DNA of 64,000 nt from Gluconacetobacter asukensis. Lineage in GTDB: Bacteria; Pseudomonadota; Alphaproteobacteria; Acetobacterales; Acetobacteraceae. Positions 23,985 to 43,038 of this stretch are shown here, one piece after another (the first letter of the stretch is position 1; each line of letters starts with the position of its first letter). A program made the position numbers and the translations under genes. The notes beneath the pieces were generated by a model. That model searched no databases, was not told where the DNA came from, and saw nothing but the letters and a program-made list of their open reading frames with translations. Location of the stretch: assembly GCF_014174375.1 (NCBI RefSeq), contig NZ_JABEQE010000004.1, positions 186,001-250,000 on the forward strand, given 5' to 3'.

Positions 23985-24506
23985 ATGGCGGCGGACGCGG
24001 GGGAGAAGCAGGCGCGGGGGTTGACCGTGCGGCAGGCGCGGTTCGTCGCGGAATATCTGGTCGACCTGAACACGACGCGGGCGGCGATGCGGGCCGGGTA
24101 TGGGGCGGGGTATGCGCGCCGGCATGCGTGGAAGCTGCTGCGGTCGGTGCGGGTGCGCGAGGCGATCCGGCAGGCGGAAGCGGCGTTGGAGGCGCGGACG
24201 CAGTTCAGCCAGGATCGGGTGATTGCCGAGCTGACGCGGCTGGCCTTCTACGATGTGGGTACGATTGCGGCGCATCCGCTGAAGGGGCCGGAGGATATCG
24301 CGACGTTGCCGGTGGAGGTGCGTGCGGCGGTGACGGGGTGGTCGTGGGACAAGGCGGGAAACTTCACGGTGCGGCTGGCGCCGCGTACGCCGAGCCTGGA
24401 CCTGCTGGCGCGGCATTTCGGCCTGCTGAAGGATGTGAAGCAGCATCTGGGCCGTGACGGCAAACCTGTTGATCCGCCAGGCTTTTACACCGTCGTCGTC
24501 CGCTAG
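23985..24506 (+). CDS. Phage terminase small subunit (Terminase_2 type)
   Basis: A 173-residue DNA-recognition subunit of a packaging terminase. Its N-terminal helical domain LTVRQARFVAEYLVDLNTTRAAMRAGYG.GYARRHAWKLLRSVRVREAI matches the Terminase_2 family, with LAFYDVG in the middle. It selects phage DNA for the large subunit encoded downstream. This is the first gene of the phage cassette; the left flank is the chromosomal TonB operon, read in the opposite direction, with no integrase between. The ATG at 23985 follows GGGGGGAAGGCG. Confidence 0.85.
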   Translation: MAADAGEKQARGLTVRQARFVAEYLVDLNTTRAAMRAGYGAGYARRHAWKLLRSVRVREAIRQAEAALEARTQFSQDRVIAELTRLAFYDVGTIAAHPLKGPEDIATLPVEVRAAVTGWSWDKAGNFTVRLAPRTPSLDLLARHFGLLKDVKQHLGRDGKPVDPPGFYTVVVR

Positions 24507-24829: not shown

Positions 24830-26302
24830 GTGCTGGGGTATAATCGGGCGTCGGTGCCGACGATCCGGCGGTTTATGGAATCGGATGCCTTTATCAGGGG
24901 GCTGATGGGGCCGTTCGGGTCCGGGAAAAGTTCGGGCTGTGTCTGGGAGATCGTGCTGCGGGGGTTGCGGCAGGCGCCGGGGGCGGATGGGGTGCGGCGT
25001 TCGCGCTGGGCGGTGATCCGCAATTCCTATCGCCAGCTTGAGGACACCACGATCCGCACCGTGCATCAATGGTTTCCGCCGGTGCGCTTCGGGCGGTGGA
25101 AGCCGAGCGAGCATTCCTATGTGATCGACCGCATGGTGGCGGAGGGGGATGAGAAGCCGGCCGAGATCGAATTTCTGTTTCGCGCGCTCGATCGGCCGGA
25201 CCAGGTGGGGAACCTGCTGTCGCTGGAGCTGACCGGGGCGTGGGTGAACGAGGCGCGCGAGGTGCCGTGGGCGATCATCGAAGCGGTGCAGGGGCGTGTG
25301 GGGCGGTATCCGGCGCGGCGGGATGGTGGGGCGACATGGTCGGGCGTGATCATGGATACCAATCCGCCGGATGCGGAATCGGACTGGTACCGGTTCTTCG
25401 AGGAAAAGGACCATGGGGAGGCGGTGGCGGCGCTGGCGCAGGTGATTCCGGGCATGACGATCGAGCGCTTTGCGCGGATCTTTCGCCAGCCCAGCGGGCG
25501 GGCTTCGGTGGCGGAGAATCTGGACAATCTGCCGCCCGGTTATTACCAGCGGCTGGCGGTCGGGAAAAGCGACGAGTGGAACAAGGTTTATATCGACGGG
25601 GATTATGGGTTCGTCATGGAAGGGCGGCCGGTCTTCGGCGAATATAATGACGGGTTCCATTGCCGGGAGTGCCGGACGGTGCCGGCGCTGCCGGTTTATC
25701 GGGGGTGGGATTTCGGGCTGACGCCGGCCTGTGTCTTTACGCAGATGCTGCCGTCGGGGCAGTGGATCGTGGTGGACGAGCTGGTGTCGGACGCCATGGG
25801 GATCGAGCGGTTTGCCGAGATCGTGGGGCGGCATTCGGCGCAGCATTTTCCCGATACGCGCTTTGTCGACATCGGCGATCCGGCGGGGATGCAGAAGGCG
25901 CAGACCGACGAGCGGACCTGTTTCGAGATCCTGCATGCGCGGGGGATTGCCATCGAACCGGGGATGCAGACGCTGGCGATCCGGCTGGAGAGTGTGCGCC
26001 GGCCGTTGCGCACGTTGCTGGACGGGGCGGCGCCGGGCTTTGTGCTGCACCCGCGCTGCACGACCGTGCGCCGGGCGCTGATGGGCGGCTACCAGTATCG
26101 GCGCGTGCAGGTGAGTGGCGAGCGCTATACCGACCGGCCGGAAAAGAACCGGTGGTCGCATGTGATGGACGCGCTGCAATACGTGGCCACGCGGCTGTTC
26201 GGCAGCGAATTGCGCGGGGTCGGCGGGGCGGAGGCGGATGACGATATCTGGCGCGCGCTGCCCGATGACGGGCGGACGCGATCGCACATTACGGGATACT
26301 GA
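24830..26302 (+). CDS. Phage terminase large subunit
   Basis: A 490-residue packaging motor: ATPase domain with Walker A GPFGSGKSS (27-35), a catalytic-strand region LTGAWVNEAREVP, and a C-terminal nuclease domain with an acidic start GWDFG and the closing SHVMDALQYVATRLFG typical of phage terminases. It translocates DNA through the portal and cuts it. The start is GTG, 15 bases after the preceding stop. Arrangement terS, small gene, terL, then portal is the normal late-gene order. Confidence 0.92.
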   Translation: MLGYNRASVPTIRRFMESDAFIRGLMGPFGSGKSSGCVWEIVLRGLRQAPGADGVRRSRWAVIRNSYRQLEDTTIRTVHQWFPPVRFGRWKPSEHSYVIDRMVAEGDEKPAEIEFLFRALDRPDQVGNLLSLELTGAWVNEAREVPWAIIEAVQGRVGRYPARRDGGATWSGVIMDTNPPDAESDWYRFFEEKDHGEAVAALAQVIPGMTIERFARIFRQPSGRASVAENLDNLPPGYYQRLAVGKSDEWNKVYIDGDYGFVMEGRPVFGEYNDGFHCRECRTVPALPVYRGWDFGLTPACVFTQMLPSGQWIVVDELVSDAMGIERFAEIVGRHSAQHFPDTRFVDIGDPAGMQKAQTDERTCFEILHARGIAIEPGMQTLAIRLESVRRPLRTLLDGAAPGFVLHPRCTTVRRALMGGYQYRRVQVSGERYTDRPEKNRWSHVMDALQYVATRLFGSELRGVGGAEADDDIWRALPDDGRTRSHITGY

Positions 26303-26303
26303 C

Positions 26304-26561
26304 ATGGCAGGATTGGTGATTCCGGCGCATCTGGGGGCGCATCTGGGGTTGGGGCGGCGTAGCTGCCGCCAGTGCCGCCATCATGGCGTGGAGGGCGGCG
26401 ATGTGGTGTGCCGGCGTTATCCGCCGCAGGTGACGGTGGTGCTGGTGCCGCAGGGGGCGCCGCGCGTGGGGCAACTGGCGCCGCAGCCTTTTGCCACCTT
26501 TCCGCCGGTGGTGCCCGAGCATGTGTGCGGCGAGTTCTCGCCCGGCGGCGAGGGGGGCTGA
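26304..26561 (+). CDS. Small Cys/His-rich phage protein
   Basis: An 85-residue protein placed between terL (one base away) and the portal gene (two bases away). It contains SCRQCRHHG..GGDVVCRRYPPQVTVV, a possible zinc-knuckle. No family is recognised. The ATG at 26304 directly follows the terL stop. The tight spacing on both sides makes it a likely translated gene rather than a gap. Possibly a packaging or portal accessory; unknown. Confidence 0.6.
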   Translation: MAGLVIPAHLGAHLGLGRRSCRQCRHHGVEGGDVVCRRYPPQVTVVLVPQGAPRVGQLAPQPFATFPPVVPEHVCGEFSPGGEGG

Positions 26562-26563
26562 AC

Positions 26564-28456
26564 ATGGATGCGGCGGAGCGGGATGGACCCGACATGGATC
26601 TGGCGGAGCGGCTGCGGCGCTGGATCGAGATCGCGAATATTGCGGAGGAGCTGGACGAGGCGACGCACGGGCGGGTGGCGGACCGGGTGGCGCGCGACTG
26701 GCGGGCCGACGAGGCCACGCGGGCCGAGTGGAAGGAGAATTGCCGCCGCTGGCTGGATCTGGCGCAGCAGGTGGCCGAGCCCAAGACCTATCCCTGGCCG
26801 GGGGCGTCGAACGTCATCTATCCGCTGCTGACGGTGGCGGCGGTGCAGTTTGCAGCAAGAGCCTATCCGGGCATCGTGCGTGACCGGGACGTGGTGCGGG
26901 GCACCGTGCTGGGGGACGATTCCGGTGTGCCGGTGCCCGATCCGCTGCGGCCGGGGCAGGTCTTGATGGGGCCGGATGGCGGGCCGTTGTGGCTGGTGCC
27001 GCCGGGGGCGAAGCGGGCGCGGGCGACGGCGATCGGCCGGCATATGAGCTGGCAGTTGCTGGACGAAATGGCGGAGTGGGAGGAGCAGACCGACAAGTTG
27101 CTGCTGAAGCTCTCCATTGTCGGCACCATGTTCCGCAAGACCTATTTCGACCCGGCGTTGCAGCGTAATGTCAGCGAGACGGTCGACCCCATGCGGCTGT
27201 GCATCGATTACCACGCCAAATCCTTCGCCACCGCGCCGCGGATTACCGAGGAGATCGACCTTTATCCTTGGGAGATCGAGGAGCGGATTCGGGCCGGGCT
27301 GTTCCTGGAGCAGGATTATGGCGGCAATCATGAGGCCGGCGAGGACAGCGATGCGCCGGTGACGTTCCTGGAGCAGCATCGGCGGCTGGATCTGGATGGG
27401 GACGGGTATGCCGAGCCCTATATCGTGACCATTGCCCGCGATTCGGGCCGGCTGGCGCGCATTGCCGCCGGGTTCGACATGGATGGGGTGATGTTCGATG
27501 CGCAGGATCATCGCATCCGGCGGATCGAGGCAGTGTCGTATTACACCAAATTCTCCTTTATCCCGTCGCCGGATTCCGCGATCTACGATATCGGGTTCGG
27601 CACCTTGCTGCATCCGCTGAATGCGGCGGTGAATACCAGCCTGAACCAGATGTTCGATGCCGCGCATCTGGCCAATGCCGGCGGCGGCTTTGTCGGCTCG
27701 GGCATGTCGCTGAACAGTGGGTCGGTGCGCTTTCAGGTCGGCGAATACAAGGTGGTGAATACGCCGGGTGCCACGTTGCGCGAGAATCTGGTGCCGTTGC
27801 AGTTTCCGGGGCCCAATCCGGTGCTGTTTCAGCTTCTGGGGTTTCTGGTCGATGCCGGGCGGGAGATTGCGTCGGTCAAGGATATCCTTTCCGGGGCCAT
27901 GCCGGGTGGGAATGTGTCCGGCGTGCTGGGGCTCGCGGTGATCCAGCAGGGGCTGAAAGTGTTCAGTGCCATCTTCAAGCGGATTCATCGCAGTCTGGGC
28001 GGGGAGTTTCGCAAGCTCTACCGGCTGAACCGGCTGTATCTGCCCGATGAATCCGGCTTTCGGGACGGCAGTGCGTTCTTTCGCGTCACCCGTGCCGATT
28101 ACGAGCAGGGGGGCGGGGTGGAGCCGGTGTCGGACCCCGAGATCGTCACCGACATGCAGCAACTGGCGCGCGCCAATTTCCTGCTCGCCTTCAAGGACGA
28201 TTCCTGGTGCGACGGGCATGAAATTCGCCGCCGTGCCTTCGAGGCTGCTGCCATCGGGATGGTGGACAAGGTGTTGCGGCCGACGCCGGTACCCGATCCG
28301 GCGGCGATGGCGCGGGCGGCGGATCTGGATCTGCGCGCGAAGCGTGAGGCGCGGGAGATGGAGATGCGGGTGGGGAGCGAGGCGGTGGAACAGGTCTCGA
28401 CGCTGGCTGAGGCGGCTTTGCGGTTGGCGCAGGCTCGGAAGGTGGAGCGGGAGTGA
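26564..28456 (+). CDS. Phage portal protein (podovirus type)
   Basis: A 630-residue portal. The N-terminal part has RRWLDLAQQVAEPKTYPWPGASNVIYPLLTVAAVQFAARAYPGIV, a pattern common to P22/N4-like portals, followed by mixed alpha-beta clip and stem regions (SPDSAIYDIGFGTLLHPLNAAVNTSLNQMFDAAHLANAGGGF) and an alpha-helical C-terminus rich in Arg, Glu and Ala. It forms the dodecameric channel in the capsid vertex and docks the terminase. The ATG at 26564 follows the small gene's stop. The gene ends just before an AT-rich hairpin element. Confidence 0.75.
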   Translation: MDAAERDGPDMDLAERLRRWIEIANIAEELDEATHGRVADRVARDWRADEATRAEWKENCRRWLDLAQQVAEPKTYPWPGASNVIYPLLTVAAVQFAARAYPGIVRDRDVVRGTVLGDDSGVPVPDPLRPGQVLMGPDGGPLWLVPPGAKRARATAIGRHMSWQLLDEMAEWEEQTDKLLLKLSIVGTMFRKTYFDPALQRNVSETVDPMRLCIDYHAKSFATAPRITEEIDLYPWEIEERIRAGLFLEQDYGGNHEAGEDSDAPVTFLEQHRRLDLDGDGYAEPYIVTIARDSGRLARIAAGFDMDGVMFDAQDHRIRRIEAVSYYTKFSFIPSPDSAIYDIGFGTLLHPLNAAVNTSLNQMFDAAHLANAGGGFVGSGMSLNSGSVRFQVGEYKVVNTPGATLRENLVPLQFPGPNPVLFQLLGFLVDAGREIASVKDILSGAMPGGNVSGVLGLAVIQQGLKVFSAIFKRIHRSLGGEFRKLYRLNRLYLPDESGFRDGSAFFRVTRADYEQGGGVEPVSDPEIVTDMQQLARANFLLAFKDDSWCDGHEIRRRAFEAAAIGMVDKVLRPTPVPDPAAMARAADLDLRAKREAREMEMRVGSEAVEQVSTLAEAALRLAQARKVERE

Positions 28457-28690: not shown

Positions 28691-28975
28691 ATGGAGCAGC
28701 GTCAGGCGATGTTGGAGGATCTGTCGGAGGAGGCGTTTCTGGCCTGGCGGCATCATCCGGTGACGCGGGCGGTGCGTCTGTTTCTGACGGATTATGGCGA
28801 GAGCATCGAGCAGCGGATGCTGGGCCAGTGGCGGGCGGGGACGATTACGCTGGCGCAGGAGCATGAGGCGCGGGGCCGGGCGGCGCTGGCGGCCGAGATG
28901 GCCGAGCTGCGATGGGCGGCGATGCGGGCGTTTTACGGTCAGGGGTCGGGAGAGAAGGAGGCGGGTGATGCGTGA
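28691..28975 (+). CDS. Small phage protein upstream of the GroES-like gene
   Basis: A 94-residue, mainly helical protein (MEQRQAMLEDLSEEAFLAWRHHPVTRAVRLFLTDYGESIEQRML..) with no recognised domain. AAGGA precedes the ATG at 28691. It overlaps the GroES-like start by eight bases, so the two are translationally coupled and probably work together. Its WRHHP and LFLTDYG pattern is seen in uncharacterised podovirus head genes as far as I recall. Function unknown. Confidence 0.65.
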   Translation: MEQRQAMLEDLSEEAFLAWRHHPVTRAVRLFLTDYGESIEQRMLGQWRAGTITLAQEHEARGRAALAAEMAELRWAAMRAFYGQGSGEKEAGDA

Positions 28976-29381
28976 GGGACGCATTCTGAAATTCGACCAG
29001 CAGGAATTCGTGGTTTCGGACTGGGATGGGGTGAATCGGGCGGGATATGTGCCGCTGGACGACAAGATCCTGGTGCTGGCGGATGTGCATGCCGAGATGA
29101 CCAGCGGGGCGGTGCAGTTGCCGGCGGAATATGTGGAGCGCCAGACGCTGGCGGCCGAGCATGGGACGGTGATTGCGGTGGGGCCGGCGGCATTTCGCTG
29201 GAACGATGATGGCACGCGGCAGTGGGTGGGAACGATTCCGGCGGCGGGGGATCGGGTTTATTTCGAACGCTATGCCGGGCAGCTGCTGAAGGGTGAAGAT
29301 GGGCGGCTGTACCGGCTGATGTCGCAGCGCTGTATTGCCGCGATTGCGGCGGTGGCGAAGCAGGAGGGAGAGCTTGCATGA
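28968..29381 (+). CDS. Phage-encoded GroES-like co-chaperonin
   Basis: A 137-residue protein whose residues from about 35 on align with the Cpn10 fold: PLDDKILVLADVHAEMTSGAVQLPAEYVE, then AEHGTVIAVGP, GDRVYFERYAGQLLK and a final LYRLMSQRCIAAI, which mirrors the GroES pattern V-[GEV]-AVG-GD-V-F..YG..IMSESDILA. The N-terminal 30 residues are an extra arm. It would cap the host GroEL to fold the capsid protein, like T4 gp31. Overlaps at both ends (8 bp upstream, ATGA downstream to scaffold) tie it to head assembly. Confidence 0.8.
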   Translation: MREGRILKFDQQEFVVSDWDGVNRAGYVPLDDKILVLADVHAEMTSGAVQLPAEYVERQTLAAEHGTVIAVGPAAFRWNDDGTRQWVGTIPAAGDRVYFERYAGQLLKGEDGRLYRLMSQRCIAAIAAVAKQEGELA

Positions 29382-31236: not shown

Positions 31237-31830
31237 ATGAATTCCAATGCTCCATTTGGCCTGCGGCCGATGGCTTATGCGTCCGGTGCGCCGTATGCCG
31301 GCGGCGTGCAGGTTTACTATGTGCCGGCGAGCAACCCCACGCCGTTGTTTCTGGGTGACCCGCTGGTGGTTCTGCCGGGGGCGGATGCCAATGGCGTGCC
31401 GGCGGTGGGGATTGCCACGGCCGGGGCGTCTGGCCTGGTGACCGGGGCGATGCAGGGCATTGCCAGCAATGCGGGCGAGCTGGTGGTGCCGCTGTTGCAG
31501 AACCAGGCGCCGTATCTGCCGGCGGGGCAGGCGGCCTATGTGTATGTGGCCGACGATCCGAATCTGGTCTTTGCGGTGCAGGAGGATTCGGTGGGCGGTG
31601 CGCTGCCGGCCGGTGCGGTGTCGGGCAATGTCAACCTGGTGGCGGGGGCGGGATCGACCGTGTCGGCGCAGTCCGGGTGGCAGATCCAGTCGAGCAGCGC
31701 GGGGACGCTGGCGACCGGGCAGATGCGCATTCTGCGGGCGTATCAGGCGATCGACAATGCGATCGGCGCCAACGCGAAATGGCTGTGCCGCATCAATCTT
31801 CATTCCATCACCAGCACGCTTGGCGTCTGA
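31237..31830 (+). CDS. Phage structural protein before the capsid gene
   Basis: A 197-residue, Gly/Ala/Val-rich, mostly beta protein (MNSNAPFGLRPMAYASGAPYAGGVQVYYVPASNPTPLFLGDPLVVL..) encoded 12 bases before the capsid gene. The composition and position fit a head decoration or stabilisation protein. Repeated short beta units (GDPLVV, VVPLLQ, AAYVYV, NLVFAV) suggest a trimer-forming barrel. No named family was recognised. The ATG at 31237 starts the first gene after the hairpin element. Confidence 0.6.
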   Translation: MNSNAPFGLRPMAYASGAPYAGGVQVYYVPASNPTPLFLGDPLVVLPGADANGVPAVGIATAGASGLVTGAMQGIASNAGELVVPLLQNQAPYLPAGQAAYVYVADDPNLVFAVQEDSVGGALPAGAVSGNVNLVAGAGSTVSAQSGWQIQSSSAGTLATGQMRILRAYQAIDNAIGANAKWLCRINLHSITSTLGV

Positions 31831-31842
31831 GGAGTCTGTTCA

Positions 31843-32751
31843 ATGGCCGTAATTACGACGGGCGCGCACCCCAAGGCTCTCTGGCCCGGTATCAAGGCGT
31901 GGTGGGGGCGCAGCTATGACGAGCATCGCGTCGAATATCTGGATCTGTTCGACAAGCAGACGTCGGACAAGGCGTATGAGGAGGAGGTCGAGATTACCGG
32001 CTTCGGCCTGGCGCCGGTGAAGCCGCAGGGGCAGCAGATCTATTACGACACGGAAGCGCAGGGTGCGGTCAGCCGCTTTACGCATGTGGCGTATGCGCTC
32101 GGCTATATCGTGACCTATGAGGAGCTGCGCGACAATCTGTATGAGGCGGTGTCGAAGCGCCGGGCCGCGCAGCTGGCGTTTTCGATGCGCCAGACCAAGG
32201 AAAACGTGCTGGCCGGCATTTACAACATGGCGTTTTCGGCCAGTGCGCTGGGGGGTGACGGGGCGCCGCTGATTTCGGCCAGTCATCCGACGCTGGCGGG
32301 CAGCCAGTCGAACCTGCTGGGGACGGCGGCCGATCTGTCGGAGGCGGCGATCGAGGATCTGACGGTGCAGATCATGCAGTGTCAGAACAACCGGGGGATG
32401 CGGATTTCGGCGCTGCCGCGTACGCTCAATGTGCCCTCGGCGCTGTGGTTCGAGGCCAACCGGGTGTGCAATTCGGTGCTGCAGAACGATACGGCGAACA
32501 ATGCGATCAACGTGCTGCGCGCCACCAACGCGTTCCCCGAAGGCATCAAGCTGAACCATTACTTCACTAGCCAGACGGCGTGGTTCATCCGGACCAATGT
32601 GCCGAATTCGCTGACCTATTATGAGCGCGATCCGATCTCGTTCGATCAGGACAATGATTTCGACACAAGGAATGCCAAGGCGGCCTGTTATGAGCGCTAT
32701 TCCGGCTATTGGGCGGATTGGCGGGGGCTGTATGGGACGCCTGGCGTTTAA
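31843..32751 (+). CDS. Major capsid protein (putative)
   Basis: A 302-residue protein resembling HK97-fold capsid proteins of the Mu gpT-like group: VEYLDLFDKQTSDKAYEEEVEITGFGLAPVKPQGQQIYYDTEAQG (N-arm), YALGYIVTYEELRDNLYEAVSKRRAAQLAFSMRQTKENVLAGIYNMAF (spine-helix-like), then a beta-rich domain ending YWADWRGLYGTPGV. It is the only protein in the cassette with the right size, position and composition. It follows the beta-rich head protein and would be folded with help from the GroES-like protein. Confidence 0.7.
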   Translation: MAVITTGAHPKALWPGIKAWWGRSYDEHRVEYLDLFDKQTSDKAYEEEVEITGFGLAPVKPQGQQIYYDTEAQGAVSRFTHVAYALGYIVTYEELRDNLYEAVSKRRAAQLAFSMRQTKENVLAGIYNMAFSASALGGDGAPLISASHPTLAGSQSNLLGTAADLSEAAIEDLTVQIMQCQNNRGMRISALPRTLNVPSALWFEANRVCNSVLQNDTANNAINVLRATNAFPEGIKLNHYFTSQTAWFIRTNVPNSLTYYERDPISFDQDNDFDTRNAKAACYERYSGYWADWRGLYGTPGV

Positions 32752-33104: not shown

Positions 33105-33512
33105 ATGGCGGATGTGACGACTGTTCAGGTGATCGCGAATGGTCCGCGTAATCTGGTCTTGCGCGTGACGGATGTCAGCGATGGGACCGGGCTGGCGGCG
33201 ATGAAGATCGTGGATGCGCAATCCATGGCTTTTTCGGTCGGCGGGGCGGTGCCGGGGGTGCATCTGACGGTGCGGCGCATTGCCTATGACGTGCATGGGA
33301 TGGTGGCGCGGCTGCAATGGGAGGCGACGGAGCCGGTGGATCTGGCGACGTTGTCGGGCTTTGGGCATCTCGATTTTCGTCGGTTTCAGGGCGTTCCCAA
33401 TCCGAAAGTGGCGGGGGCGACGGGGTCGATCCTGCTGACGACGATGGGGGCCGGGGCGGGGAGTGCGGTCACGATCGTTCTTGAGATGATCAAGGGTGTG
33501 CCGCAGGCGTGA
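33105..33512 (+). CDS. Hypothetical phage structural protein
   Basis: A 135-residue beta-rich protein (MADVTTVQVIANGPRNLVLRVTDVSDGTGLAAMKIVDAQSM...) containing NLVLRVTDVSDGTG and LSGFGHLDFRRFQGVPNPKVAGATGSILL, a pattern found in uncharacterised proteins between the capsid and tail genes of related prophages. No known catalytic motif. It lies 55 bp after the small basic gene and 13 bp before the next gene. A head-completion or tail role is plausible. Confidence 0.6.
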   Translation: MADVTTVQVIANGPRNLVLRVTDVSDGTGLAAMKIVDAQSMAFSVGGAVPGVHLTVRRIAYDVHGMVARLQWEATEPVDLATLSGFGHLDFRRFQGVPNPKVAGATGSILLTTMGAGAGSAVTIVLEMIKGVPQA

Positions 33513-34080: not shown

Positions 34081-34409
34081 CGCAGGTTGCGGTATCGCAG
34101 TTGCCGGACAGCGCGGATGTGCGCAATGGCGACCTGCTGCTGGTCTCGCGCCAGAGCGGGGCCGGATGGATGAGTTGCCGGGCCGCGCTGTCCTATGTCC
34201 TGGCGTGGCTGGGGGTGGGGAAAGCCGGCGGGATCGCGCCGCTGGATGGCGAAGGCGCGCTGATGCTGAACGGGGTGGCGGCGCTGCATGTGGATGAAGG
34301 CGGCCATCTGATTTTGGACGTGGCACTGCCGACCGCGGACCCCGGTGTGAAAAACGCGCTGTGGACGCAGGGCGGTGTTCTTCTGCTTTCGGCGGGGCCG
34401 ACATCATGA
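34077..34409 (+). CDS. Small phage tail-region protein
   Basis: A 110-residue protein starting at a GTG that overlaps the previous stop (GTGA). It opens TQVAVSQLPDSADVRNGDLLLVSRQSGAGWMSCRAAL, a pattern typical of short fibre-attachment or tail-collar proteins, and ends with LSAGPTS. The next gene's ATG overlaps its stop. Its size and place suggest a link between the head-tail complex and the fibre protein downstream; no domain is recognised. Confidence 0.6.
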   Translation: MTQVAVSQLPDSADVRNGDLLLVSRQSGAGWMSCRAALSYVLAWLGVGKAGGIAPLDGEGALMLNGVAALHVDEGGHLILDVALPTADPGVKNALWTQGGVLLLSAGPTS

Positions 34410-35602
34410 TGCTGTTTCGTTGTGGATTGGTTGCCGGCGCCCTGGCGGTGCCGGTGTCCGCGTGGGCGCAATATGCGCCGTTCCAGCCGCCGGGCGGTCT
34501 GGCGCCGGCCACGCTGGTGGGCAGCCAGACGCTGGCGCAGATGCAGGCGGCGACCCTTGCCGTGCAGGCTGTGGCGGCGGCGGCTGTTCCGTCGTCGCAA
34601 AAGGGGGTGGCGGGCGGTGTCGCGGCGCTGGATGACGGCGGCGACGTGACGGCGCCGCTGACCGGTGATGCCACGCATGCGGCTGTCACGCCTGCCGGCG
34701 GGTCTGCGACCATGCTGGGTGCCTATCTGGGCATGCTGGCGAAATCGTCCGATCTGTCGGCCTATCTGACGGTGGCGGCCGCAGGGCAGAGCTATGCGAC
34801 GCAGACGGCGCTTGCCGCCACGGCGGCGATCGCCAATGCCGCCATCCCGTCCGGCAGGATTGGTGCGGCGTCGGGCGTTGCCGGTCTGGATGCATCGGGG
34901 CGGGTGACGGCGCCGATCGCGGGCGATCTGACGCCGGCGGTGGTGACGCCCACCGGGGGCAGCCAGGTCAACATTGCCGATGCGCTGGCCTCTTACGCCA
35001 CCCAGGCCGGGTTGACGGCCGAGACGACGCGCGCGACGGGTGCCGAGGCGACGTTGCAGTCCAACATCAACATCGAGGCGACGACGCGCGCGAATGCGGA
35101 TGCGTTGCTTTACCCCAAGACGGGAGGGGCTATCTCAGGGGCGGTGACAATTGGCGGAACTTTAACGACAGCGCAGAACGTTAATATTGGTTCCGGTTCT
35201 GTCGCCGTGGCGGCAAACGAGGTATTTAAATCTAATGGCGGCGGCATCTATTATGACGCGCAGATCACAGTAACCGGCGGCACATCTGGGGCGGTTAACG
35301 GCGGCAATATGTCGATTAACGCTGCGATCGTCAGTTTAGCCACCGGAACAGGGCAGCTTGCGAAAGCGCCAACTCCCGCTGCCGGCGACAACTCCACGAA
35401 CATTGCCACCACGGCCGCCCTCCGCCGGGAAATCGCCACCGGCTACACTGTCGTGACGCTTCCGACCGATGCGCGGAGATATGCGGGCGCGCGAGCATAC
35501 GTCACCGATGCAACCGCGTGCACCTTCCTCGGATCTCTGACCGGCGGCGGCGCGACGTTCTGCCCGGTGATCTATAACGGCACAAGCTGGGTCGCGGAGT
35601 AA
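34406..35602 (+). CDS. Fibre/spike-like phage protein with N-terminal signal-like peptide
   Basis: A 398-residue protein. It starts with what looks like a Sec signal peptide (MMLFRCGLVAGALAVP..SAWAQ), odd for a virion protein. A repetitive Ala/Gly-rich body follows, including two related units (GVAALDDGGDVTAPLTGDATHAAVTPAGG and GVAGLDASGRVTAPIAGDLTPAVVTPTGG) and a helical NIADALASYATQAGLTAETTRATGAEATLQSNINIEATTRANADAL. The last 165 residues (from about 35100) have visibly lower GC and a different style (YPKTGGAISGAVTIGG, YTVVTLPTDARRYAGARAYVTDATACTF), as in exchanged tail-fibre tips. Two ATGs are adjacent. Confidence 0.7.
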   Translation: MMLFRCGLVAGALAVPVSAWAQYAPFQPPGGLAPATLVGSQTLAQMQAATLAVQAVAAAAVPSSQKGVAGGVAALDDGGDVTAPLTGDATHAAVTPAGGSATMLGAYLGMLAKSSDLSAYLTVAAAGQSYATQTALAATAAIANAAIPSGRIGAASGVAGLDASGRVTAPIAGDLTPAVVTPTGGSQVNIADALASYATQAGLTAETTRATGAEATLQSNINIEATTRANADALLYPKTGGAISGAVTIGGTLTTAQNVNIGSGSVAVAANEVFKSNGGGIYYDAQITVTGGTSGAVNGGNMSINAAIVSLATGTGQLAKAPTPAAGDNSTNIATTAALRREIATGYTVVTLPTDARRYAGARAYVTDATACTFLGSLTGGGATFCPVIYNGTSWVAE

Positions 35603-35606
35603 CGCC

Positions 35607-35852
35607 ATGACCACGAGCAATCATATCCTCTATCGCACGGCGGACGAGGTGGTGACGCCGCCGAGCTATACCGATCCAGACACAGGTGCCACGATCACGC
35701 CGCCAGCGTTTGTCGCCTCGCCGAAAGGCACCGTGATCCTGACCCAGCAGATCGACGATCCGGCATCGGTGAGCGTGCCGGCTGGGTTTGCGCTGGCGGC
35801 TGATCCGGCGGGGGCATATCCGGTCGGCAGTCTTTATCCGGTGCCGGCATGA
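35607..35852 (+). CDS. Small phage protein after the fibre gene
   Basis: An 81-residue protein (MTTSNHILYRTADEVVTPPSYTDPDTGATITPPAF..) that shares the lower GC of the fibre's end and probably travelled with it. The final AGAYPVGSLYPVPA is Pro/Gly-rich. Its stop overlaps the gp4-like start by four bases (ATGA). It may be a fibre-assembly chaperone or a tip subunit; no family recognised. Confidence 0.55.
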   Translation: MTTSNHILYRTADEVVTPPSYTDPDTGATITPPAFVASPKGTVILTQQIDDPASVSVPAGFALAADPAGAYPVGSLYPVPA

Positions 35853-37735
35853 TGACCGGGAGCGCGGGCTGGAACCCCGGGACATCCGACATCATCAACG
35901 GCGCGCTGCGGCTGATCGGTGCGATGGCCAGCGGGGAGGTGCCGCCGGCGAATGAATATCAGGACGCGCTGTCTGCGCTGAACGGGCTGATCAAGGCGTG
36001 GCAGGTGTCGGGCGTGCATGTCTGGGCGCAGGGTGAGGGGACGGTGTTTCTCCAGCCTGGGCAGGCCCGGTATGGGATCGGCGTCGGCAGCGCGGACCAT
36101 GTGGCGCAGGGCTATGTGGCCACGGTTGCGGGAGCGCCGGTGGTGGCGGGGGCGGCGCAGGTGACGGTGGCCTCTGTTGCCGGTATCGCGGCCGGCTGCC
36201 GGATCGGCATTGTGCTGGATGGGGGCGGGCTGTTCTGGAACTCGGTGCTGTCGGTGGTCGGTGGGACGGTCTATCTGGCATCGGGGCTGGGGGGGCCGGT
36301 ATCGGCGGGGGCGGTGGTGGTCGCTTATGGCGCGCCGTTCGTGCGGCCGCTGACGGTGATCGGGGCGCGGACCGTCGATCTGGCGACGGGGGTGGAGACG
36401 CCGCTGATTCCGATGTCGCGGCTGGATTATGCGAACCTGTCGGGCAAGGGGACGCCGGGTGGGAGTCCGGTGCAGTATTTTTACGATCCGCAGGTGGGGA
36501 CCGGTCTTTTCAGTGTCTATCCGGCGCCTGCCGGCGGGCAGGTGGCGGTGACCCTGACCTGCCAGCTTCCGTTGCAGGATGTGGGTGGTGCGGCCGATAG
36601 TGCCGATGTGCCGCAGGAATGGATCTCGGCGCTGCGCTTCGCGCTGGCGGTGGAACTGGCGCCGGAATATGACTGCCCGGCCCAGCGTTTCGAGATGCTG
36701 AAGGCAATGGCGGCGGAGAAATTCGCCGTGGTGGCGCAGTGGGATCGGGAACCGGCGGGGACGACCACCTGCCCGTTCAGCCAGCCGGTTTACCAGATGA
36801 TCGCGGGCGCGTTGCGGCTGTGCGGGGCGGTGGGGCCGCAGGAGGTGCCGCGCCTGGGGCTGGTGGAGAATGCGTTCGCGTCGCTGAATGCGATGGTGCA
36901 GGCGTGGCAGGCTTCGGGCATTCATGTGTGGGCCGAAGAAGATTGCACGCTGTTCCTGCAGCCGGGGCAGGTGCGGTACCTGATCGGGGCCGGGTCGGCG
37001 GATGCGGTTGCGGTGAGCAGCCAGTGCATTGAAACGGTGCTGGCGGCGGCGGGTGCCGGGGCGCAGGTGACGGTTGGGGCTGTGGCGGGGATCGCTGCCG
37101 GCTGGCGGGTTGGACTCTGGCTGGATGGCGGGGGCGTGTTCTGGACCGGTGTGGTGGCGGTTTCGGGGGGCGGACTGACGCTGGCCGCGCCGTTGCCGTC
37201 CGCGGCGTCGGAGGGGGCGCGGGTTGTGGCCTATCCTTGCCCGATGGTGCGGCCGTTGCGGGTGCCGGCGGCGCGGCGGCGGCAGTTCGCGGGCGGCGGG
37301 CAGGCGGTGGAGGTCCCGCTGGTGCCGATGTCGCGGCTGGATTACGCGAATGTTCCGAACAAGAGCGTGCCCGGTGTGGTGACGCAGTTCTTCTACGATC
37401 CGCAATTGGGGGTGGGGGTACTGCATGTGTGGCCCGCGCCCTCGGACAGTGGCAGTGCGGTGGCATTTACCGCGCAGCGGCCGTTGATGCCGTTTGCCGA
37501 TCTGGGTTCGGTGCCGGATTTTCCCGATGAGTGGCTGGCGGCGATGCGGTGGAACCTCGCTGTGGAATTGTGGCCGGAATATAACGGATCGGGGAAAGGT
37601 CCGGTCAATCCGGCGCAATATGCGATTCTGAAGCAGGAGGCCGTCAGCAAATTGATGGTGGCGCAGGCCTGGGATCGGGAGCCGCAATCGGTGCTGTTTG
37701 GTGCCGGCGCGGGGCCGGCCGGGCGGGCGGGGTAG
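35849..37735 (+). CDS. Tandem-duplicated gp4-like tail accessory protein
   Basis: A 628-residue protein made of two homologous halves (about 14-302 and 315-614). Each has a helical lead like P22 gp4 (ALRLIGA..EVPPANEYQDALSALNGLIKAWQVSGVHVWA / ALRLCGAVGPQEVP..AFASLNAMVQAWQASGIHVWA), the segment FLQPGQARYGIGVGSAD / FLQPGQVRYLIGAGSAD, a GIAAG beta module, PLIPMSRLDYAN / PLVPMSRLDYAN, a YFYDPQ / FFYDPQ strand, and a closing helix ALRFALAVELAPEY / MRWNLAVELWPEY. P22 gp4 (166 residues) has neither the duplication nor the inserted beta module. It would seal the portal and connect to the gp10-like hub. Confidence 0.75.
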   Translation: MMTGSAGWNPGTSDIINGALRLIGAMASGEVPPANEYQDALSALNGLIKAWQVSGVHVWAQGEGTVFLQPGQARYGIGVGSADHVAQGYVATVAGAPVVAGAAQVTVASVAGIAAGCRIGIVLDGGGLFWNSVLSVVGGTVYLASGLGGPVSAGAVVVAYGAPFVRPLTVIGARTVDLATGVETPLIPMSRLDYANLSGKGTPGGSPVQYFYDPQVGTGLFSVYPAPAGGQVAVTLTCQLPLQDVGGAADSADVPQEWISALRFALAVELAPEYDCPAQRFEMLKAMAAEKFAVVAQWDREPAGTTTCPFSQPVYQMIAGALRLCGAVGPQEVPRLGLVENAFASLNAMVQAWQASGIHVWAEEDCTLFLQPGQVRYLIGAGSADAVAVSSQCIETVLAAAGAGAQVTVGAVAGIAAGWRVGLWLDGGGVFWTGVVAVSGGGLTLAAPLPSAASEGARVVAYPCPMVRPLRVPAARRRQFAGGGQAVEVPLVPMSRLDYANVPNKSVPGVVTQFFYDPQLGVGVLHVWPAPSDSGSAVAFTAQRPLMPFADLGSVPDFPDEWLAAMRWNLAVELWPEYNGSGKGPVNPAQYAILKQEAVSKLMVAQAWDREPQSVLFGAGAGPAGRAG

Positions 37736-37740
37736 GGGCG

Positions 37741-40700
37741 ATGGCGGTTCAGCAGGTGGCCTTTGCCGCGCAATCGTACCAGGCGCATTCGGTGGCGCTG
37801 GATGCGCAGCGTTGCGTCAATTTCTATGCAGAATATGCGCCGAAGGATGCCAAGACGCCGGTGCCGGTGTGGGGCTGCCCGGGCATGGTGGCGTTCGCGC
37901 GGTGCGGGGCCGGGCCGGTGTGGGGCATGTGCCTGATGGGCGGGGCGCTGTATGTGGTTTCGGGGCAGGCGCTGTATCGGGTGGATGCGGATGGGTCGAG
38001 CGTCGAATTGGGCGCGACCTGGGTGACGGGGCCGGTGTCGATGGATACCAATGGCACCGACCTGGTGTGGGTGGATGGGGAATCCGGCTGGTCCTATTCG
38101 GTGGCTGGCGGGGTGCAGCAGATCACGGATGAGAATTTCCAGCCGGCTGACAGCGTGGTGTATTTCGATACTTATTTCGTCTTCAACCGGGCCGGGACGC
38201 AGGAATTCTTTCTTTCGCCGCAGGAGGCGGTGACGCCGTTCGACGGGACGATGTTCGCTTCCAAGGAGGCGACGGCCGACCCTTTGCTGGCGATCGTGAA
38301 TTCGCATGAGCAGCTTTATCTGTTCGGCGCGGCGCGGACGGAGGTTTGGTACGATGCCGGGAGTGCGGCGCCATCCTTTCCGTTCCAGCGGTTCGATGGG
38401 GCGTTTATCCAGCGGGGCATTGCGGGGCCGCACGCGCATTGCCTGGAGGATAATACGCTCTTTTTCCTGGGCGATGACGGGATGTTCTATCGCCTGTCGG
38501 GGTATCAGCCGCAGCGTGTTTCGACCCATGCGATCGAGGGGGCATGGCAGGCCTATGTGACGCGGGCGGATGCGCGGTGTTTCAGCTACACGCTGGAGGG
38601 GCATAAATTCGTCACCCTGCTGTTTCCGTCCGCGGCCGCGACCTGGGTGTATGATGTGGCGACCGGCCTGTGGCACGAGCGGGAATCCTGGACCGGCAGC
38701 GGAGCCGACAGTTCGATCGGTCGCTGGCGGGCCAATTGCGCGATCATGGCCCATGGCCGGGTGCTGGTGGGCGATTGCCTGAGCGGTGTGGTCGGGGTGC
38801 TGAATCCGCTGGTCTATACCGAGCTGGGGGCGACCATGCGCGGGTTGCTGGCCGCGCCGCCGGTGCAGGGGCTGCGCGGGCGCGTGTTCATGCGGCGGTT
38901 CGAGCTGGATGTGGAGACGGGGATCGGTCTGCCGGGCGTGCCTGCCGTGCGGAACGTGACCTATCAGCCGCAGGGGGTGGAACTGACGACGCCCACCGCG
39001 CTGACGCGGGCGACGGCGCCGGAGGGCATGGCGGTGGGAATGGCCAGTCTGCTGGTCAGCCTGTGGGTGGATCTGCCCGATGATGGCGCGCCGCGTGGGC
39101 TGGTGCTGGGCAGCGGGGAGGCGACGGGCAGCCGGCCGGGCTTCTTTATCGGCGTGGCCAATGACGACACGCTGGCCGGGGCGCAGATCGTGGTGCGGGC
39201 GACCGACATGCAGGGCGGGGAGATCGTGAGTGCGTCTTACGATTTTTCCGGTTGGGGGGCGGGGTGGGTGAATCTGCTGCTGTCGCTGTCGCCGGGGGAG
39301 CGGCAGGTGCAGCTTTATGCCGGAGGGGCGGCGCTGGTGCCGGCCTCGGTCGTCTGGTCGTCGGCGGCGCCGGTCGGCAATGTGGCGGGGCAGGGGTGGC
39401 GCGTTGCGCCCTGGAACGGGGTCGTCGAGGGGGCGGGGCTGCTGGCGGCGCCGCAGTTTGGCGGCCATACGGCGGGGTCGACCGCCGTTTATAACGGGTG
39501 GGCGAATACATCGTGCATGCCGGACCGGTCGGGGAACATGATTTCGCTGGGCAGCGGGGCGGTGAACGCGGTCTCGCCTTCCGGCGCAGTGGTGTGGACG
39601 CTGGTGAAGGCTGATGTGCAGGCCGACATCCTGACCATGGCGCCGGGACTGGACATGCTGAATTTTCGGCTGAATGCGGCCTCGGTGCTGCTGCTGGGGC
39701 AGTATCTGGTGGTGGGGGTGGATGACGGCGCGGTGTGGGAAGGGATTGCGCTGTATCAGGCCAATGGTGGGGCGGCGCCGGTCTTTCTGGGATTCGTCTA
39801 TAACGCCATTGGCGGGCCGGGGCCGATCTATGGGGCCAATCAATGTTTCCTGGCCGGGTCTCAGACGATCGACGATCCGATCCTGTCCTATCAGGTTGAT
39901 TATCCGGCGGTGCCGCGTGTGGTGCTGGTCTTTCCCAGTATTGCGCAGATCATCAGCGGGGCGGCGCGGTCGGGTGGGCTCAACGGGCTGTATCCCCAAT
40001 TGGGCAGTGCGGTGGCGTGGGCCGCGTGCCGGGTGCCGGTGATCAAATGTGCCTATCCCGCGCAGCTGGGGACGCATCTGCTGCTCCAGTCCGGTTATAA
40101 CGGCAATGTCGGGTTCTTTCTGCCGGACGGGCAGGGCGGGACCAACCATTATCTGTATTTCAGCCGGGGCGACATGGCGGCCAATGCGGTGGAAGGGGGG
40201 AATGCCAACCCGGAATTGCAGGCGGTGATAGGGCCGGCCTGGCCGCATGGGGCGATGGTGCGGATTGCCATGGGAGTTGTCAGCTACGATGCGCTGGCGG
40301 CGCAGTTTGCCGGCAATACCCTCACGGGGCTGAACGGGACATTGCCGATGTATACGATCGACAATGAAAACTGGATCGATGCTGCCGGTGCCGTGCAGAT
40401 TCCGTTTGCGGACGAATATGCGTTCATTGCCGACGGGCAGAAGGGGGGGACGGATGTTTATGGCGGGCAGCCGGGGCTGACGCCGATCGGGGGGAGTGGC
40501 GACTGGCTGGTGTCGTTTCTGCTGGTGGGGCTGTCGGACAGTGCGGCCAACCGGGGCAACGCGAGCATGTGGGACACGGTCCGGGTGTTCCGGTATTCCG
40601 CCGGGCGGGCGACGCAGATCGGGGCGCCGGTTTCGGGCGAGGCTTATGCCGCCACCGACTGGGCGGGCTACACGATCGGGCCGTGGAGCGATGGCAATGC

Positions 40701-41361
40701 CGTGGCCTATGTGAGCGGGCCGGTGGTGACGATCTGCGGCAATATGAAGCAGACGGCGGTGGGGACGTATCCGGTGCCGGCCGGCACGCAGTATCAGACG
40801 CGTTTCGGCAGCCTGGCCTTTGCCACGGCGCGGATTGCCGATCTGTTCGTGGCGGCGCCTGAGGATTTTGTGGATCTGTCGGTGGCGGCGAACCGGGCGT
40901 TGTTTCTGAGCGATGCGGATGGGGCGCGCTATCTGGCGTCTGACGGGTCGGCGCCGCTGGGGGGGGCGCCGCCGGTTTTCCTGACCGTGGCGGCGGGGGC
41001 GCCGGTGGCGGCGTTTGCCGATAATGGCGGGGTGGGTGGCGGCTTTGCCGTGACGGGGGGGATTGTGCCGGCGGGATCGAATCCGGCGGGCAGTGCATTT
41101 GTGGAATCGGTTGATGATGCCGGCGACGATCCGCCCGGTGTGGACCCGCGGATCATGCTGGACTGGTCGGATGACGGGGCGCGGACCTGGAGCGCGCTGC
41201 GGCTATGGCGGTCGATGGGGCGGCAGGGGGCGTATCGGACGCGGCTGCGCTGGCAGAAGCTGGGGCAGGCGCGGCAGCGGGTGCTGCGGTTGCAGGTGAC
41301 GGACCCGGTGCGGCGCAATCTGATCGGGTTCTATCTGGACACCGAAACGGGGATGGAGTGA
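37741..41361 (+). CDS. gp10-like packaged-DNA stabilisation protein with a large insertion
   Basis: A 1206-residue protein. Residues 1-392 (RCVNFYAEYAPKD, GPVSMDTNGTDLVWVDGE, ELYLFGAARTEVWYDAG, FQRFDGAFIQRGIAGPHAHC) and the last 80 residues (DPRIMLDWSDDGARTWSALRLWRSMGRQGAYRTRLRWQKLGQARQRVLRLQVTDPVRRNLIG) follow P22 gp10 (Phage_stabilise), a six-fold tail hub. Between RFELDVETGIG (~398) and DPPGVDPRIM (~1128) lies an insertion of about 730 residues, starting with a LamG/jelly-roll-like part. P22 gp10 itself is 472 residues, so the added length equals the insertion. It probably binds gp4-like protein and gains a receptor or shell function from the insert. Confidence 0.75.
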   Translation: MAVQQVAFAAQSYQAHSVALDAQRCVNFYAEYAPKDAKTPVPVWGCPGMVAFARCGAGPVWGMCLMGGALYVVSGQALYRVDADGSSVELGATWVTGPVSMDTNGTDLVWVDGESGWSYSVAGGVQQITDENFQPADSVVYFDTYFVFNRAGTQEFFLSPQEAVTPFDGTMFASKEATADPLLAIVNSHEQLYLFGAARTEVWYDAGSAAPSFPFQRFDGAFIQRGIAGPHAHCLEDNTLFFLGDDGMFYRLSGYQPQRVSTHAIEGAWQAYVTRADARCFSYTLEGHKFVTLLFPSAAATWVYDVATGLWHERESWTGSGADSSIGRWRANCAIMAHGRVLVGDCLSGVVGVLNPLVYTELGATMRGLLAAPPVQGLRGRVFMRRFELDVETGIGLPGVPAVRNVTYQPQGVELTTPTALTRATAPEGMAVGMASLLVSLWVDLPDDGAPRGLVLGSGEATGSRPGFFIGVANDDTLAGAQIVVRATDMQGGEIVSASYDFSGWGAGWVNLLLSLSPGERQVQLYAGGAALVPASVVWSSAAPVGNVAGQGWRVAPWNGVVEGAGLLAAPQFGGHTAGSTAVYNGWANTSCMPDRSGNMISLGSGAVNAVSPSGAVVWTLVKADVQADILTMAPGLDMLNFRLNAASVLLLGQYLVVGVDDGAVWEGIALYQANGGAAPVFLGFVYNAIGGPGPIYGANQCFLAGSQTIDDPILSYQVDYPAVPRVVLVFPSIAQIISGAARSGGLNGLYPQLGSAVAWAACRVPVIKCAYPAQLGTHLLLQSGYNGNVGFFLPDGQGGTNHYLYFSRGDMAANAVEGGNANPELQAVIGPAWPHGAMVRIAMGVVSYDALAAQFAGNTLTGLNGTLPMYTIDNENWIDAAGAVQIPFADEYAFIADGQKGGTDVYGGQPGLTPIGGSGDWLVSFLLVGLSDSAANRGNASMWDTVRVFRYSAGRATQIGAPVSGEAYAATDWAGYTIGPWSDGNAVAYVSGPVVTICGNMKQTAVGTYPVPAGTQYQTRFGSLAFATARIADLFVAAPEDFVDLSVAANRALFLSDADGARYLASDGSAPLGGAPPVFLTVAAGAPVAAFADNGGVGGGFAVTGGIVPAGSNPAGSAFVESVDDAGDDPPGVDPRIMLDWSDDGARTWSALRLWRSMGRQGAYRTRLRWQKLGQARQRVLRLQVTDPVRRNLIGFYLDTETGME

Positions 41362-41978
41362 TGCCGGCGGCACCGCGCCAGACCCTGCCGGTGGGGGACT
41401 GGCCATTCGTCGACACCACGACCGGGCGGCTGACGCTGTCGGCCTATCAGTTTCTCGCGCGGCTGCAGGCCGGGTCCAGCGGGTCGATCCGCAATCTGTC
41501 GGTGATTGCCGGGGCGCTGGGCGTGCCGGTGGCAAGTATTGGTGCCAGCGGGCCGGCTTCGGTGATCCTGCCGGCGTCCTTTCCGCCGCCGGCACCCGTG
41601 CCGGCGGGGCGGGGGGAGCGGTTGCTGGCGTTGTTGGCGGCCGTGCCGCGCCCGGTTGCGCCGGGTTCGCGGATGTTGCCCGTGGCGCCGGCGCGGCCGG
41701 GGGATGTGGTGGTGCTGCATCATGGCGCGCGGGTGATGGACGGGTTCGGCGGGCCGGAGGGGCGTGTCGCCGGGTGGGTGGGCGATGTCTTCCTGCAACG
41801 CGATGGCGGGCCGGCGGGGGCGGTGTGGGCCAAGCAGTCGGGCGCCGGGACGGTGGCGGGCTGGGCGGTGCTGGGGCAGGGGGCTGGTGGGGGCGTGCTG
41901 CCGCTGGTCAACGGGAATATCGCGCCGGTCGGCATGCTGTCCGATCCGGCGGGGCAGACAATCGGGGTGCCGATCTGA
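41361..41978 (+). CDS. Hypothetical phage tail protein
   Basis: A 205-residue protein whose ATG overlaps the gp10-like stop by one base (TGATG). It starts TLPVGDWPFVDTTTGRLTLSAYQFLARLQAGSS, an opening common in tail-tip and adsorption proteins, then has a Pro-rich region (PPAPVPAGRGE) and beta segments around VAGWVGDVFLQRDGG. No enzymatic motif. It precedes two more small distal genes. Possibly an adaptor of the distal tail structure; function unknown. Confidence 0.6.
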   Translation: MPAAPRQTLPVGDWPFVDTTTGRLTLSAYQFLARLQAGSSGSIRNLSVIAGALGVPVASIGASGPASVILPASFPPPAPVPAGRGERLLALLAAVPRPVAPGSRMLPVAPARPGDVVVLHHGARVMDGFGGPEGRVAGWVGDVFLQRDGGPAGAVWAKQSGAGTVAGWAVLGQGAGGGVLPLVNGNIAPVGMLSDPAGQTIGVPI

Positions 41979-42436
41979 TGGGCAACAGCACGCTGATTAC
42001 CGATTATCTCGGTTACGGCACGCTTGCCGCGCGGCCGGTGGCGCCGAACCTGCCGGCAGGGTGTCTTGGGGTCTATTACGCCACCGATACCGGGCAGATC
42101 CAGGTGTGGAACGGGGCGTGGCAGGATTGGGCGCCGTCCGCCATTTCGTTCTCGGGCAGTCTGGTGGCGGCGGGGAGCGGGCAGGGCACGGCGGCTGCCG
42201 TGTCGTCGGAAGTCAATCTGTTCACCAATGTGCCGGCCGGCACCGGAGCGGTGCTGGTGGCGGGGCTGGTAGGAACCTGGCGCAAGGTGCTGAACCGGGG
42301 CGGTTCCGCGCTGCTGGTCTATCCGCCCGTGGGGGGCGTGATCGATGCGCTGGCGGCGGGGGTGCCGGTTGCGATCGTGCCCGGTGGAGGCGCCACGTTC
42401 TGGCAGAACAGTGCAACGCAATGGTATTCGGAATGA
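41978..42436 (+). CDS. Hypothetical phage tail protein
   Basis: A 152-residue beta-rich protein whose ATG overlaps the previous stop (TGATG). It reads MGNSTLITDYLGYGTLAARPVAPNLPAGCLGVYYATDTGQIQVWNGAWQDWAP, where the GVYYATDTGQIQVWNGAWQ segment resembles beta-strand repeats of phage tail-fibre and tape-end proteins. A KVLNRGG..LLVYPPVGGVIDAL follows. The next gene overlaps by ATGA. No function can be assigned beyond a distal-tail role. Confidence 0.6.
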   Translation: MGNSTLITDYLGYGTLAARPVAPNLPAGCLGVYYATDTGQIQVWNGAWQDWAPSAISFSGSLVAAGSGQGTAAAVSSEVNLFTNVPAGTGAVLVAGLVGTWRKVLNRGGSALLVYPPVGGVIDALAAGVPVAIVPGGGATFWQNSATQWYSE

Positions 42437-43038
42437 AGAGAATCCTGTTGATGCTGGCCGGTGTGCTGGTGCTGGCGCCATATGCTGCGGGCCCGGCGCG
42501 GGCGCAAATGGTGGGGCCGGTCGGGCATGGTGAAATTCCCTCCTGTCCCGACAGCGGCGGCAACCATCTGAATTACGTGCCTGCGAGCGGAAGTTTTTCC
42601 TGCGGCACCACGGGCGTGCCCTGGATGGGGGCGATGGTGACCCTGTCGGCGGATGCGGCGATGGCGGCGACCGGCGGCAGTTTCGTGCAGATGAATGTGT
42701 GGAACAGCGAAGTTCTCGATACGTCGTCTTTCTGGTCGGCGGGTGTGCCGGGGCAGTTCACGATTCCGGCCGGGGTGAGCCGGGTGCGGGTTGCGCTGTC
42801 GGTTGCGCAGTCGGGTATCGGGTCCAACCAGTTCCTGGTGTATCGGAATGGGGTGCGGGTTGCCGGGTCGTTCCGGATCTCGGTGCCGGCGGGTTACAAT
42901 AATGACGGGGTGACCGGTATGTCGGGCGTCATTCCTGTGGCACCGGGCGATGCGATCAGTGTTTCCTATGCCTCGGCAGCGGCTTTTACGTTGTCGGCCG
43001 ATGTGAGTACCTGGTTCCAGATCGAGGCCGTTCAATAG
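42433..43038 (+). CDS. Secreted-looking beta-sandwich phage protein, last gene of the cassette
   Basis: A 201-residue protein with an N-terminal signal-like segment (MKRILLMLAGVLVLAPYAAG..ARAQ) and a C1q/TNF-like beta region (TFSC..VPWMGAMVTLSADAAMA, FTIPAGVSRVRVALSVAQSGIGSNQFLVYRNGVRVAG, ISVSYASAAAFTLSADVSTWFQIEA), typical of knob or spike domains. With the fibre-like protein at 34406 it is the second cassette protein with a signal peptide. The stop at 43038 is the right end of the cassette; 122 bases later a chromosomal nitroreductase begins. Confidence 0.6.
   Translation: MKRILLMLAGVLVLAPYAAGPARAQMVGPVGHGEIPSCPDSGGNHLNYVPASGSFSCGTTGVPWMGAMVTLSADAAMAATGGSFVQMNVWNSEVLDTSSFWSAGVPGQFTIPAGVSRVRVALSVAQSGIGSNQFLVYRNGVRVAGSFRISVPAGYNNDGVTGMSGVIPVAPGDAISVSYASAAAFTLSADVSTWFQIEAVQ

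Follow-up and report, generated by a model that had tools for sequence, protein, structure and literature searches.

A gp10-type tail hub with a nested LamG-type insertion in a phage-like gene cluster of Gluconacetobacter

The gp10 protein is usually regarded as a passive plug of short-tailed phages. Hubs of this type, which include P22 gp10, tubeB and the members of PHROG 578, are encoded directly 3' of a gp4-like adaptor gene, and two that have been solved, 9vyg ("Stabilization protein") and 7eeq ("Needle head proteins"), are 442-446 amino acids long. We analyzed 64,000 nucleotides from Gluconacetobacter asukensis (contig NZ_JABEQE010000004.1, positions 186,001 to 250,000; hereafter the window, from whose first letter all positions are counted), where an open reading frame (ORF) of 1206 amino acids on the plus strand (37741-41361, ATG start) directly follows such an adaptor gene (35849-37735). 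By sequence, this ORF encodes a tail hub of the gp10/tubeB kind, part of a podovirus-type particle. The hub is like P22 gp10, tubeB and PHROG 578 in its core (residues 1-401), its closing module and its place behind the adaptor gene, and both of its ends align with the 9vyg and 7eeq hubs, but between core and closing module it is longer than all of these by about 730 residues. In related phage contigs the hub is split into two or three genes.

Both ends of the protein are homologous to known gp10/tubeB hubs. PHROG 578, annotated as "head closure Hc3", matches residues 1-401 with an E-value of 8e-105, and PHROG 19101 matches residues 1131-1203 (E 8.5e-13). Based on hidden Markov models (HMMs) of aligned relatives, window hub included, we place the core at residues 1-398 (37741-38934) and the closing module, which is also present in uninterrupted hubs, at residues 1131-1206 (41131-41361 with the stop codon). 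In a single-sequence search the protein matched the solved hubs in two pieces, residues 21-317 and 1132-1177 for 9vyg_M and residues 41-318 and 1134-1203 for 7eeq_1; the second pieces alone are weak in this search (E 0.12 and 0.025), and the match is clearer with a profile (E 3e-4 and 1e-5 for the chains). The closing module contains an Asp-box-like stretch, SDDGxRTWS, and BNR matches in relatives are below the cut-off. Pfam, run on the whole 1206 residues, returned no family at E 1. The original prediction from this DNA, a gp10-type hub with an insertion of about 730 residues relative to P22 gp10, for which it gave 472 residues, is borne out: the two homologous parts lie that far apart.

The insertion is not a general property of the family. 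The hub matches 46 phage records, covering less than 80% of the query in all of them and at most 39% among the 40 listed; since none comes near full coverage, the insertion is absent from those records. Uninterrupted relatives have open frames of about 465-545 amino acids (for example L013, L025-L027, L031 and L181), and two of them (L181 and L182) are 70% identical over residues 1-408 to a phage hub that carries the first part of the LamG-type domain described below. Because such close relatives lack the insertion, a uniformly long gp10 family, which would have spoken against the original prediction, is not what we see. An assembly artefact as the source of the extra length is ruled out because the gene is continuous in 11 of the 13 other copies. 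We also noted gp10-type hubs with insertions at quite different points, of about 515, 70 and 80 residues (L028 5992-8946, L029 6001-7632 and L192 6866-8620, respectively), so the family tolerates several insertion sites. The genome of the window itself has a second, uninterrupted hub relative (L002, C10:26837-28087; 34% identity over residues 3-396), which probably belongs to another prophage.

Within the insertion, residues 402-560 (LamG-N; 38944-39420) and 1033-1128 (LamG-C; 40837-41124) are probably two parts of one LamG-type domain placed around an unrelated segment of 472 residues (561-1032; 39421-40836). It had been predicted that the insertion starts with a LamG-like segment at 39040-39370 (residues 434-543), and this part of the prediction stands, as the segment lies inside LamG-N. 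The insertion is not simply led by LamG, however: the domain is split around the unrelated segment, resumes at residue 1033, which makes the insertion a nested one, and ends just before the closing module.

The assignment comes mainly from four contiguous proteins of other Alphaproteobacteria (L236-L239). A LamG-C profile (A6) run on 289 genomes of the class matched 29 of them at E 1, mostly at chance level, and outside the window's genome four had matches below E 0.001, with these four proteins as the best places; among 299 genomes of the order, the LamG-C search matched in Gluconacetobacter only (12 genomes). In all four proteins an N-part precedes LamG-C within the same frame. The Laminin_G_3/ConA-like lectin family PF13385 matches two of these N-parts above its cut-off (L237 and L238) and one below it (L236), with no match to that of L239. 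Profile-profile comparison with hhalign placed both parts of the hub domain on these proteins in the right places and in order, with E 2e-17 for LamG-C and E 0.011 for LamG-N. The LamG-N score of 23.3 was reached by none of 150 column shuffles (maximum 18.8), and compares with 15.8 for the reversed profile and 13.0-15.9 for three other hub alignments. When the whole alignment of residues 394-1206 (A5) was compared with contiguous LamG, only the LamG-C part aligned meaningfully. PF13385 does not match the hub protein itself; both parts are homologous, in order, to domains of which two of four pass its cut-off. Considering the PF13385 coverage and the profile-profile scores, we regard the LamG assignment as strong for LamG-C and moderate for LamG-N. 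Unlike the PF13385 domains onto which its parts map, the LamG of the hubs is interrupted, either by a domain or by a gene boundary.

In the searches we made, the nested segment matched Gluconacetobacter copies only. It has no Pfam match (E up to 5), no PHROG match and no match below E 1 among PDB sequences. Among PDB sequences, searches with the insert and the LamG parts had significant matches to the closing module only. When the two LamG parts were compared by tblastn with phage and plasmid collections, matches were absent or at chance level, and a phage LamG-C protein (from L115) queried without its hub end had no matches. One match at E 4 is annotated as a lectin-domain protein and carries PF13385, but it is weak and we did not count it as evidence; a propeller fold for the segment was a guess from reading the sequence and is supported by no search. 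The insertion as a whole may bind the host or another surface.

The same inner insertion point is a gene boundary in phages. By HMM, in 11 viral contigs (L020-L023, L100, L103, L104, L115-L117 and L126), nine of them distinguishable because L115-L117 have identical coordinates, the first hub gene ends after LamG-N, and LamG-C and the closing module are found in the next gene or genes. Two further contigs that are truncated, L024 and L102, agree with this arrangement as far as they reach. These numbers come from pattern-based scans of relatives (A3: the best 80 of 251) and are not a survey. In L022, neighboring hub genes overlap by one base, and the shortest LamG-C gene product has 178 amino acids with LamG-C starting from about residue 12, both of which make a sequencing error an unlikely cause of the split. 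In the HMM scan, every uncut contig that has one LamG part also has the other. In L115-L117 and L126 the LamG pair sits at an earlier point of gp10, with gene 1 stopping at about core position 309-324 (gene 2 of L115 picks up the hub at PHROG 578 position 344), indicating that the LamG is treated as one unit.

What precedes LamG-C in these phages varies. Four contigs (L020, L022, L023 and L100) have two LamG-C genes each. Some LamG-C genes of the phage contigs carry almost nothing before LamG-C. The other regions fall into five groups that have no blastp match with each other at E 1e-3, apart from one link of 29 residues: L020_2 and L021_2; L020_3, L022_2, L023_2 and L100_2; L103_2 and L104_2; L102_2 and L115_2; and L023_3, which has only those 29 residues in common with L100_3. 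This is a grouping at the level of blastp. Cadherin_3 matches occur in three of the LamG-C proteins, two of them above the cut-off. None of these regions is like the nested segment of the window (best E 0.5).

The cluster to which the hub belongs has diverged in step with rpoB, mostly under purifying selection, and Gluconacetobacter species appear to have inherited it from their common ancestor. The hub is present in 13 of the 14 Gluconacetobacter genomes searched, in two of them across two frames, and the genome without it is 87% complete and in about 1310 contigs. A search with just the insertion matches 7 of 299 genomes of the family, all of them Gluconacetobacter; with the capsid protein 9 of 299 match, two of which are outside the genus at 29-34% identity. 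Distances for the terminase large subunit (TerL), the portal, the capsid protein and the gene at 31237 follow those of rpoB (Mantel r 0.970, p 0.0001) over 13 genomes and 78 pairs, a set that excludes the second copy G003b. Where flanks are shared, TerL, portal and capsid have diverged at synonymous sites (dS) about as much as the host genes next to the cluster, 0.11 versus 0.06-0.13 in G010 and 0.25-0.33 versus 0.34-0.37 in G005. Over 13 copies compared with the window, omega spans 0.01-0.09 in the capsid, 0.08-0.29 in TerL, 0.10-0.28 in the portal and 0.17-0.40 in the hub. The frames of TerL, the terminase small subunit (TerS) and the capsid are open in all 13 other copies, and that of the hub in 11. 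The portal frame is open in ten; the other three have a stop at aligned residue 10, so the portal start must lie further in there. For 7 of the 13, the alignment of the adaptor came in two or more pieces; the two adaptor halves also match each other.

Selection is uneven along the hub. In 12 intact hubs (62-66 pairs per segment), median omega is 0.17 for the core, 0.62 for LamG-N (0.28-1.00), 0.37 for the nested segment (0.14-0.48), 0.48 for LamG-C (0.23-0.85) and 0.20 for the closing module. Identity to the window hub in eight relatives, in bins of 30 residues, is 0.79-0.95 in the core, 0.64-0.90 over residues 391-1140 and 0.94-0.96 over residues 1141-1200. The segment values point to a conserved chassis with faster-evolving inserted parts, and to selection on the nested segment itself.

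On balance we consider it probable that this is a gp10/tubeB hub with a nested LamG insertion that has a split counterpart in phages, displays an adhesin, and belongs to a domesticated, vertically inherited cluster. A LamG-type lectin-fold domain would have been inserted between hub core and closing module, and a further segment of 472 residues within LamG, right in front of the C-terminal part of that domain. Metagenomic phages of this lineage have the gene boundary after LamG-N at the inner insertion point, and one or two following genes each bring another domain, or almost none, together with LamG-C and the closing module. The parts may fold back together, completing both LamG and hub, with the nested or swapped segment displayed outside the hub ring as an adhesin. 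Gluconacetobacter would have the same arrangement as one continuous gene, in a chromosome-inherited and selected cluster that may still produce particles, bind surfaces and transfer DNA. A more specific version, which we put forward tentatively and think more doubtful, is one of split-domain complementation: a fixed hub half would be completed by either of two LamG-C proteins with different adhesins, so that a mixed ring is possible in each virion, and Gluconacetobacter would have fused and frozen one combination in a podovirus-type gene transfer agent (GTA).

Three other explanations have to be considered. LamG-N and LamG-C could be separate small domains that just happen to be consecutive: they are 472 residues apart in the window hub and in separate genes in the phage contigs, and several results for LamG-N count against our reading, since its profile match is modest and weak when taken alone, its HMM finds nothing significant in the four contiguous proteins (best E 1.1, in L239), and it has no Pfam match, either within the whole hub at E 1 or as the LamG-N piece of L020 at E 5. 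In those four proteins, however, the two parts in order cover one contiguous domain, and in phages they co-occur in every uncut contig, also where the pair sits at another gp10 point, so we find independent domains improbable. A nested segment that is structural, extending or sealing the tail or forming a shell, instead of binding surfaces, is somewhat easier to imagine though still unlikely. It would agree with the lack of any known lectin or enzyme family in 472 residues and with an omega lower than that of the LamG parts. Against this, the joint in phages holds several groups of cargo that are unrelated by blastp, one with Cadherin_3, as well as nearly empty versions, and such varied or nearly empty cargo is more easily explained by exchangeable adhesins than by a structural part that stays fixed.

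The alternative to which we give the most weight, while still thinking it rather unlikely, is an ordinary old defective prophage, in which the hub insertion was the receptor-binding part of the former phage and has no present use. Several findings lean this way or otherwise weigh against a maintained, inherited cluster. The hub is frameshifted in 2 of the 13 other copies, the frame at 28794 has stops in three copies, the one at 29378 is broken into two pieces in one, and omega rises to 0.55 in TerS, 0.57 in the adaptor and 0.58 in the gene at 33496. The genes that follow the hub in phage contig L022 run on to a DNA-ejection protein and a transglycosylase (L029 looks similar by eye); those behind the window hub do not, and the transglycosylase/ejection-type protein of L022 was unmatched in the window's genome in a search that had no positive control. 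A gene between capsid and adaptor (34361-35602) is variable. The cluster also lies in at least three chromosomal contexts: one defined by its downstream flank, with at least two kinds of upstream flank (the window, G010, G001, G005, G008, G009 and G007), a second (G013, G004 and G003a), and a third defined by its upstream flank (G002, G006, G011 and G003b). One species also holds two copies, and one has to suppose either moves or an old duplication followed by losses. A decaying prophage fits poorly with TerL, TerS and capsid frames that are open in all other copies, with capsid, TerL and portal omega values far under 1, and with co-divergence with rpoB across the genus. We prefer the domesticated cluster with an adhesin-bearing hub. 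G. diazotrophicus PA1 5 (NC_011365.1; L007 and L008) has the cluster twice, as diverged copies separated by about 100 kb.

The cluster genes named here around the hub are on the plus strand. TerS (23985-24506) has PF03592 at 13-149; TerL (24830-26302) matches phrog_2 and phage proteins, with relatives that include Mx8 and BcepC6B; the portal (26372-28456) matches phrog_1216 (E 1.6e-7), and SU10_portal below the cut-off; and the major capsid protein (31843-32751) matches phrog_4523/371 and annotated phage capsid proteins with up to 58% identity. The adaptor of 628 amino acids (35849-37735) is a fused double gp4-like protein (tubeA), with two stretches each for SU10_adaptor (E 2.6e-14) and phrog_12985, and a fused pair also occurs in L022 (559 amino acids) and, by look, in L020 (492 amino acids). 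The start of a small protein gene (41361-41978) overlaps the hub stop; it aligned in all 13 other copies, over its whole length in 11, and the G002 and G006 stretches end there. No integrase, repressor or replication gene was matched at E 0.001 among plus-strand ORFs of the cluster searched with PHROGs and some also with Pfam, a scan outside which minus-strand and short ORFs lie. From 43161 onward the genes are of bacterial type (nitroreductase, methyltransferase, GH32 and AraC-type regulator).

Some other genes in the cluster are worth recording. The ORF at 28794-29381, which lies among the capsid genes, has a match to the co-chaperonin GroES family phrog_3188 at residues 87-184 (E 5e-8). Of 14 copies, the window included, only four (the window, G005, G002 and G006) have a match to the putative ORF of 413 amino acids at 34361-35602, which looks like variable cargo. 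At the end of the cluster lies a protein of 201 amino acids (42433-43038) that, by eye, seems to have a signal peptide. Most of it could be aligned in 6 of 13 other copies, the G002 and G006 stretches ending before it. Its containing ORF (41764-43038) is without a match in Pfam and PHROGs; the protein may be C1q/TNF-like.

In the open-access literature that we searched (the listed titles and abstract openings on GTAs, Gluconacetobacter prophages, tail hubs and phage LamG), neither this element nor a split hub is described. The hub looks like a chassis, with a built-in lectin-type domain that is opened at one point for different domains, by nesting or by gene splitting. This suggests a way for podoviruses to alter surface binding via the hub itself, and, as a mechanism, a split domain that is completed in trans.

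The cluster is most likely a domesticated podovirus-type particle and possibly a GTA. As in GTAs, inheritance is vertical with the host, here over 13 genomes and despite several locations and a diverged second copy, and the structural genes are under purifying selection, more loosely for TerS, the adaptor and the gene at 33496. A point against a GTA is that TerS keeps its Terminase_2 domain (PF03592 positions 1-132 of 141), including the part that presumably holds the DNA-binding domain. In known GTAs, by contrast, the small terminase is reported to be without a DNA-binding domain (PMC11841831). Another podovirus-type candidate domesticated cluster is of the same kind and belongs to an unrelated host; encapsidated DNA has been seen there, whereas the Gluconacetobacter cluster is known from its genes alone. 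Adjacent tubeA pairs are described in passages of PMC10386132 for PhiGT1-like and Bcep22-like phages, and the Gluconacetobacter cluster likewise has two neighboring adaptors; here they are fused in one gene, and the hub carries an insertion that those passages do not describe. Given its inheritance under selection throughout the genus, Gluconacetobacter is a place to seek a podovirus-type GTA in Alphaproteobacteria; going by PMC12946183, it would be the class's first GTA with this morphology.

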